From: Phycisphaerae bacterium
Lineage (GTDB): Bacteria; Planctomycetota; Phycisphaerae; UBA1845; UTPLA1
Reading direction: 5' to 3'
Assembly: GCA_035275405.1 (NCBI GenBank)
Contig: DATEMU010000003.1
Location: 62,001-126,000 of the forward strand
DNA: 64,000 bases
Part shown: piece by piece, positions 24,568 through 25,493 of the stretch
How positions within the stretch are numbered: position 1 is the first letter of the stretch
Layout of the letters: each line of letters opens with the position of its first letter
Translations under genes and position numbers: made by a program
The notes under the pieces: model-generated
Database searches by the model: none
Told to the model about the DNA's origin: nothing
Seen by the model: the letters and a program-made list of their open reading frames with translations, nothing else

Positions 24568-25479
24568 CTACGAGCCCTTGCCGTCCTTGGACGCGCCGGC
24601 CCTGTTCAAACTCGCCCGTTCCCTGGCCGCCAGGTCGGCGTACTGCGTCGTCGCGCAATCTTTGGCCACTTGGTCGTAATACTGCCTCGCCTGGCCCGGG
24701 TGCCCCGCGTTGGCCAGGGCGCGGGCCAGGTGCAGCAGCTTGTCGCAGCGCGCTTCTTGTTTGGCGTTGGCTTCGGCGCGGGCGATCATTTCCGCCAGCT
24801 TGGGATCCGACTTCAGCGACTCGATCTGGCTGGAGGCCTGTTTGGCCACCGGCGCGTCTCCGAAATCCGAAACGATCCGTTGGTATTCCCGCAGGGCCTC
24901 GACTTTTTTTCCTTCTTTAAGCAGCCGGTCGGCCTGGGCGATCCGTTCGTCCGCATGCCGCGTCGCGACCGATTTCGCGACTTTGGGCGGCTTTTCCACA
25001 AGCAGCTTGTCGATCGCCGCCTCGGCGGCCCTGGCGCTCGTCCCCCAGAACGCGACCTTGCCGTCAGGATCGATCACATAGACGGTGGGAAAACCACGGG
25101 CCCCGTACGCGCCACGCGTGCGCGAAGACTCCAGGCCCACGAGATAGTTGACCTTCATCGCGGTCATGAGGCGAGACACCGTCTGCAACCGCTCATCGGT
25201 CAGCGCGAGCAGTACAACGCCCTTGTCCTTATATTTGTCTTGCATCTGAACCAGATGCGGGATGCCAGAGCGGCAGGGCGCTCACCACGTCGCCCAGAAC
25301 TCGAGCATCACGATCTGGCCTTTGAGGTACTCCAGTGGGAGCGTCTTCATGCCGGGCGGCAGGTTGGACCACGCGCCGGCCGTAATGTCCGGCGCCGGGT
25401 CGCCGATCTTGACGCCCGCCAGGGCGGTTGAAGCGACGCTGCCGAGGAGGGCCAGCAGCAAGAGCGATCTTGAGACCAT
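24568..25479 (-). CDS. Exported thioredoxin-like selenoprotein (TGA-encoded Sec at UxxC), TlpA/ResA type with TPR-like tail
   Basis: A 303-residue protein read through one in-frame TGA (codon 66, plus-strand tca at 25282-25284). Residues 1-21 form a Sec signal peptide (SLLLLALLGSVASTALA). Residues 22-140 form a TlpA/AhpC-TSA thioredoxin fold: GDPAPDI, then EFWATW-U66-A-P-C69, where the TGA replaces the first cysteine of CxxC, and the cis-proline loop GFPTVYVID. The rest (about 155-303) is helical and TPR-like. Conserved thioredoxin sequence continues in the same frame on both sides of the TGA, and the ATG at 25245 is internal. GGAGA precedes ATG 25479 by 9 nt. Expected to reduce or oxidise periplasmic thiols. 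A Cys-to-stop mutation or sequencing error is the alternative; a SECIS-like hairpin argues against it. Confidence 0.75.
25242..25284 (-). promoter_or_regulatory. Bacterial SECIS-like element (TGA plus downstream hairpin)
   Basis: The TGA occupies 25284-25282. A perfect 7-bp stem (GCATCTG at 25258-25252 with CAGATGC at 25248-25242) closes a GUU loop at 25251-25249, 30 nt after the TGA. Described bacterial SECIS elements have an apical loop 16-37 nt after the UGA with a G in its first two positions, which this meets. SelB would bind the loop to deliver Sec-tRNA. Confidence 0.65.
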
Positions 25480-25493
25480 CGCACCAAATCTCC

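Follow-up and report, generated by a model that had tools for sequence, protein, structure and literature searches.

Within the stretch of DNA analysed here (the window, 64,000 nucleotides), one gene on the minus strand is predicted to encode an exported selenoprotein (Table 1). Direct reading of the sequence reveals a frame that runs from ATG to TAG with a single internal TGA at codon 66, in the context EFWATW-TGA-APCRSGIPHL...GFPTVYVIDPDG. This gene holds the only copy of the 15-base core TGG-TGA-GSN-CCN-TGY in the 5.3-Mb genome. TGA is the stop codon of 11 of the 32 non-overlapping open reading frames (ORFs) of at least 250 amino acids in the window and is therefore an ordinary stop elsewhere. 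One of these 11 is an antisense ORF of 253 amino acids on the plus strand (24670-25431), which overlaps the selenoprotein gene and is most likely spurious in GC-rich sequence. Genomes compared with the window's own assembly (G000; 5.29 Mb, 96% complete) are designated by G numbers. Synteny of the neighbouring genes is partial, with GNAT and DinB genes found in G111 and DinB in G112 and G105, and none of the neighbours indicates a redox partner or a substrate.

Table 1. Positions in the window of the predicted selenoprotein gene and its features.
Feature	Position	Strand	Description or basis
Whole selenoprotein gene	24568..25479	minus	303 codons plus TAG stop; codon 66 TGA, predicted Sec
TGA codon 66, predicted selenocysteine, first residue of UxxC	25282..25284	minus	Sequence; TGA in the same column of 7 homologous genes
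GGAG, likely ribosome binding site	25490..25493	minus	Sequence, with the ATG 10 nt downstream; role inferred
Signal peptide, residues 1-21 (MVSRSLLLLALLGSVASTALA), export signal	25417..25479	minus	Sequence; N-termini of homologues similarly hydrophobic; cleavage site predicted
Thioredoxin/TlpA-ResA-like domain, residues ~23-165	24985..25413	minus	Pfam; ResA and DsbE structures; AlphaFold model
Cys69, resolving cysteine of U-A-P-C	25273..25275	minus	Invariant in 12 aligned homologues
Pro131, cis-proline of GFPTVY loop	25087..25089	minus	Invariant in alignment
All-helical TPR-like C-terminal tail, residues ~171-300	24580..24969	minus	AlphaFold model; Pfam TPR_2/TPR_6/TPR_14 in 10-11 of 12 homologues
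bSECIS-like hairpin GCAUCUG-GUU-CAGAUGC, TGA+26 to +42	25242..25258 (loop 25249-25251)	minus	Conservation; constraints of PMC13188914

If codon 66 is read through, it is spanned by single Pfam domains (AhpC-TSA, residues 25-143; Redoxin, residues 25-147). An AlphaFold model (34 sequences; TGA entered as Cys) has a mean pLDDT of 90 and exhibits one confident thioredoxin fold across residue 66, which immediately precedes helix 67-86; from residue 171 on, the tail is all-helical. ResA and DsbE are the top solved-structure matches of the model, with TMt up to 0.85. The thioredoxin fold, a C/U-x-x-C motif behind W-A-x-W and the cis-proline are all present in the window protein. Its tail matches TPR_14 above the gathering score (24.4 vs 23.5), TPR_2 is found in 11 of 12 homologues, and by Pfam a TPR-like tail is common to the relatives in its family. 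These results bear out the sequence-only reading, which had described two same-frame segments joined by one TGA at 25284-25282, a single thioredoxin fold across it, a TPR-like tail, and the use of TGA as a normal stop elsewhere in the window.

Homologues were searched for in 114 genomes of the same order. Seven further TGA genes are found in six other genomes of the same family (G101, G105 with two genes, G106, G109, G111 and G112), giving a total of eight genes in seven genomes with TGA in the identical alignment column, a recurrence well outside what chance would produce. Four near relatives (G102, G103a, G107 and G108) carry Cys in this column and none carries Trp, so that the TGA indeed takes the place of the first cysteine of CxxC, as had been proposed. 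One relative, G103b, is devoid of both active-site cysteines (WGTSSRASVRS) and may be a binding protein instead of a redox enzyme; this gene (L053:4053-4886) is a paralogue of the Cys form, arranged in tandem with it in the same genome. The TGA and Cys genes show only 31-43% identity to the window protein, and the TGA is therefore common to diverged genes. For the pair G111/G112, dN is 0.27 and dS 1.32 past the TGA (dN/dS ~0.2), indicating that purifying selection persists beyond this codon.

In the family tree the Cys forms of G102, G107 and G108 together with G103b form a supported clade with one Sec gene of G105 (G105b), and this clade adjoins the Sec genes of G111 and G112 (supports 97/98 and 95/94). 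A minimum of three changes between Sec and non-Sec forms is required inside the family group. Because the deeper branches are weak, the direction of the Sec/Cys change is not proven. We lean slightly towards a lineage-limited subfamily of TPR-tailed exported UxxC proteins which has undergone several Sec/Cys exchanges, including changes from Sec to Cys where the Sec machinery was kept. Such changes with retained machinery are considered rare outside FdhA and SelD (PMC13188914). By sequence, the nearest relatives with Cys that bear a name are metagenome-assembled genomes of Planctomycetota, which is thus the probable phylum of the window; they were retrieved with the pattern FWATWC, which requires Cys and covers Cys relatives only.

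Concerning the decoding machinery, selB directly precedes selA (522.9 bits) in G000, and selD (370.8 bits) and a tRNA-Sec (71 bits; anticodon TCA, UCA in the RNA, by ARAGORN) are present as well. The earlier suggestion that the organism reads this TGA as Sec, which a genome without sel genes would have contradicted, thus agrees with the gene content. The selD gene has an in-frame TGA of its own, reading SCAG-TGA-AGKLP, followed 3' by the hairpin GGCGCAG-GUC-CUGCGCC with an apex of the same type as in the window gene; this TGA lies at L062:1655-1653 (contig C8 of G000, minus strand), and SelD is itself a predicted selenoprotein. Formate dehydrogenase alpha is the usual reason for bacteria to retain Sec; in G000 neither a match to it above cut-off nor one bearing an in-frame TGA was found. 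Across the order selA is detected in 95 of 114 genomes, and any correlation of the Sec form with selA has to be read in view of its presence in nearly the whole order. The genomes bearing Cys forms retain selA. It was not found in the G106 assembly (75% complete, 650 contigs), which has a TGA homologue. SelA is split into two same-frame matches (~259 and 267 of the model) in G005, G010, G011, G012, G014, G018, G020, G021, G022, G026 and G030; recurrence in many genomes of one related family points to a putative insertion inside SelA. A further selA match with one in-frame TGA (G074:C353:463-1812) could be due to error or recoding.

The hairpin downstream of codon 66 consists of a 7-bp stem and a 3-nt GUU loop; the stem starts 23 nt and the loop 30 nt past the TGA, and the folding energy is -16.1 kcal/mol over 51 nt. 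Its register is kept in seven of the eight TGA genes. Six of the eight have a stem of seven pairs with a GU loop, and one more has six pairs. Compensatory changes are seen in two of the seven pairs (UA to CG, GC to CG), and 98% of the cells in the seven in-register genes are paired as compared to 14-45% with slid partners. The equivalent position was scored as a control at 118 distinct Cys sites, drawn from all loci retrieved: seven pairs occur at none of them, and the ten that reach six pairs are all without a GU loop. The contrast of 7/8 TGA genes with 0/118 Cys sites gives a Fisher p of ~1e-10, computed on rows that are not independent. The eighth TGA gene, from G106, has a shifted hairpin of similar type, UGGUGC-AGUU-GCACCA, whose loop lies 34 nt past the TGA. 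Between G000 and G111 synonymous change is zero in the hairpin codons vs 0.65 across the whole downstream part. Published limits for bSECIS elements are a loop of 3-9 nt, G in the first two loop positions, a spacing of 16-37 nt and an energy below -7.5 (PMC13188914); the hairpins of the window gene, the in-register TGA genes, G106 and selD all fall within them. An Rfam scan of the region gave no match. Folding energy alone is unremarkable against shuffled sequences (z ~ -0.5 to -1.2), and the argument for the hairpin therefore rests on covariation, conservation and the Cys control.

Several other explanations for the internal TGA were considered. Only a single base separates TGA from TGC or TGT, so a sequencing or assembly error could have produced it; an identical TGA is, however, present in seven other genes from six separate assemblies, and the TGA genes carry a hairpin that the Cys genes are without, which makes such an error vanishingly improbable. 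A pseudogene created by nonsense mutation would fit with one in-frame stop that, without read-through, leaves a piece of 65 residues. We hold this to be extremely unlikely in view of the purifying selection past the TGA in G111/G112, the sharing of the TGA by genes of only ~40% identity and a window gene free of other frame damage. The frame would likewise be open if general suppression or an altered genetic code made UGA specify some other residue, for instance Trp or Cys. Here the chance is again minute: TGA closes a third of the large ORFs in the window (11/32), relatives have Cys and never Trp at the codon, and a complete Sec pathway exists together with the bSECIS-like hairpin. In effect, a sequencing error, a pseudogene and a global reassignment of the codon can all be dismissed.

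It has also to be asked whether the locus makes two products, a short exported peptide and a protein without a redox centre, since an ORF of 225 amino acids starts from an ATG at 25245, downstream of the TGA. This arrangement would cut the thioredoxin domain through its active site, and all homologues conserve, at the protein level, the UxxC stretch that lies between the TGA and this ATG; we give the two-product reading hardly any credence. Of another kind is the possibility of a selenoprotein whose Sec is there chiefly for sensing or for binding a metal and not for thiol-disulfide exchange. In its favour, binding of metals or of groups derived from them is predicted for many selenoproteins (PMC13188914). 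The UxxC motif, the cis-proline and the overall fold nevertheless agree with the catalytic proteins ResA, DsbE and TlpA, and a sensor or metal-binding role appears unlikely. With high confidence we favour the view that UGA66 is decoded as selenocysteine and that the product is an exported thiol-disulfide oxidoreductase of the TlpA/ResA-like type.

The window gene shares its fold class, Sec as the first residue of UxxC and widespread Cys homologues with the UxxC selenoprotein filed under cd02966, which we take to be the TlpA-like family. It differs from that entry in its TPR-like tail and in belonging to a lineage-limited subfamily, a distinction made at the level of description. With the Cys-type proteins ResA, TlpA and DsbE/CcmG it has in common the fold, the position of CxxC, the cis-proline and the export signal; these proteins have Cys where the window protein has Sec, and their solved domains are without a TPR tail. 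The curated ResA, TlpA and DsbE models score below cut-off (75.6/170, 41.2/230 and 34.6/123 bits), and we therefore regard the protein as a member of the superfamily, not as one of these orthologues. A ResA-like domain with Sec behind W-A-x-x is also shared with the ResA-like selenoprotein WAxxUGC_long (NF041054) and with the UGC-containing TlpA selenoproteins. The match to NF041054 extends into the tail (residues 45-270) and is weak, its 36.5 bits lying far under the cut-off of 300 bits, and the motif is U-A-P-C instead of U-G-C; the protein does not belong to this family. No curated NCBIfam model is matched at cut-off by the window protein.

A thiol-disulfide isomerase-like UxxC selenoprotein was catalogued in a study of the Sargasso Sea in 2005 (PMC1088965), and a review of 2026 lists a thiol-disulfide isomerase-like selenoprotein under cd02966 in its Table 1, besides UGC-type TlpA and redoxin UxxC selenoprotein families (PMC13188914). 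Replacement of the first CxxC cysteine by Sec is thus a known theme, as the sequence-only reading had stated. Selenoproteins and sel genes of Planctomycetes are already known, too (PMC4807772); our literature search found nothing specific on Sec-containing TlpA in Planctomycetota.

The DNA pattern F-W-[AG]-T-W-TGA-[GA]-P-C was matched in 38 of 392 sampled genomes of the phylum, that is in 37 besides the window genome, and a reversed control pattern yielded none among the matches listed. At the 29 sites that were read, the frame is open before and after the TGA and the context is thioredoxin-like. Sec-containing TlpA-like proteins are therefore spread over the phylum. The genes from the 37 other genomes (F-W-x-T-W-TGA-G-P-C) resemble the window gene in their open frames at the sites read, but they are distant from it on the tree and differ in tails and domain make-up. 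Many W-[AG]-T-W-TGA-G-P-C TlpA-like genes, from several families of the phylum, are found at L174-L203, where ordinary annotation would truncate them, and some genomes have two. The proposal of a new family hence holds in part. The class of Sec TlpA-like UxxC proteins is not new, being catalogued and widespread in the phylum; new are the TPR-tailed subfamily, which curated models leave unnamed at cut-off, and the repeated Sec/Cys exchange within one family.

Comparison of sequences establishes the gene structure, the pairing of TGA with Cys, the sel genes, the conservation of the hairpin and, as judged from substitution rates, the selection past the TGA; they speak for the original proposal of Sec at this codon, and the catalytic residue is almost certainly selenocysteine. 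From here we infer how the protein is made and works. The hairpin, which begins 23 nt past the UGA and has its G-U loop 30 nt past it, would be the binding site of SelB loaded with Sec-tRNA-Sec, and Sec would be inserted at UGA66 in place of termination. The signal peptide would then take the product out of the cytoplasm. There, the protein could alternate between two states, one with U-A-P-C reduced and one with Sec66 and Cys69 joined in a selenenylsulfide, and so exchange electrons with disulfides or with further oxidised substrates. Docking of a partner or client is the probable role of the TPR-like tail, a guess drawn from TPR proteins in general.

Standard annotation ends the gene at residue 65 and thereby hides what is presumably an exported redox enzyme. 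The finding points to extracytoplasmic use of Sec in a lineage that commonly carries selA, and in a genome, G000, that has no formate dehydrogenase alpha match above cut-off. Since the family comprises closely related Sec forms, Cys forms and a form without a redox centre, it could serve to address the question why Sec is kept or lost.
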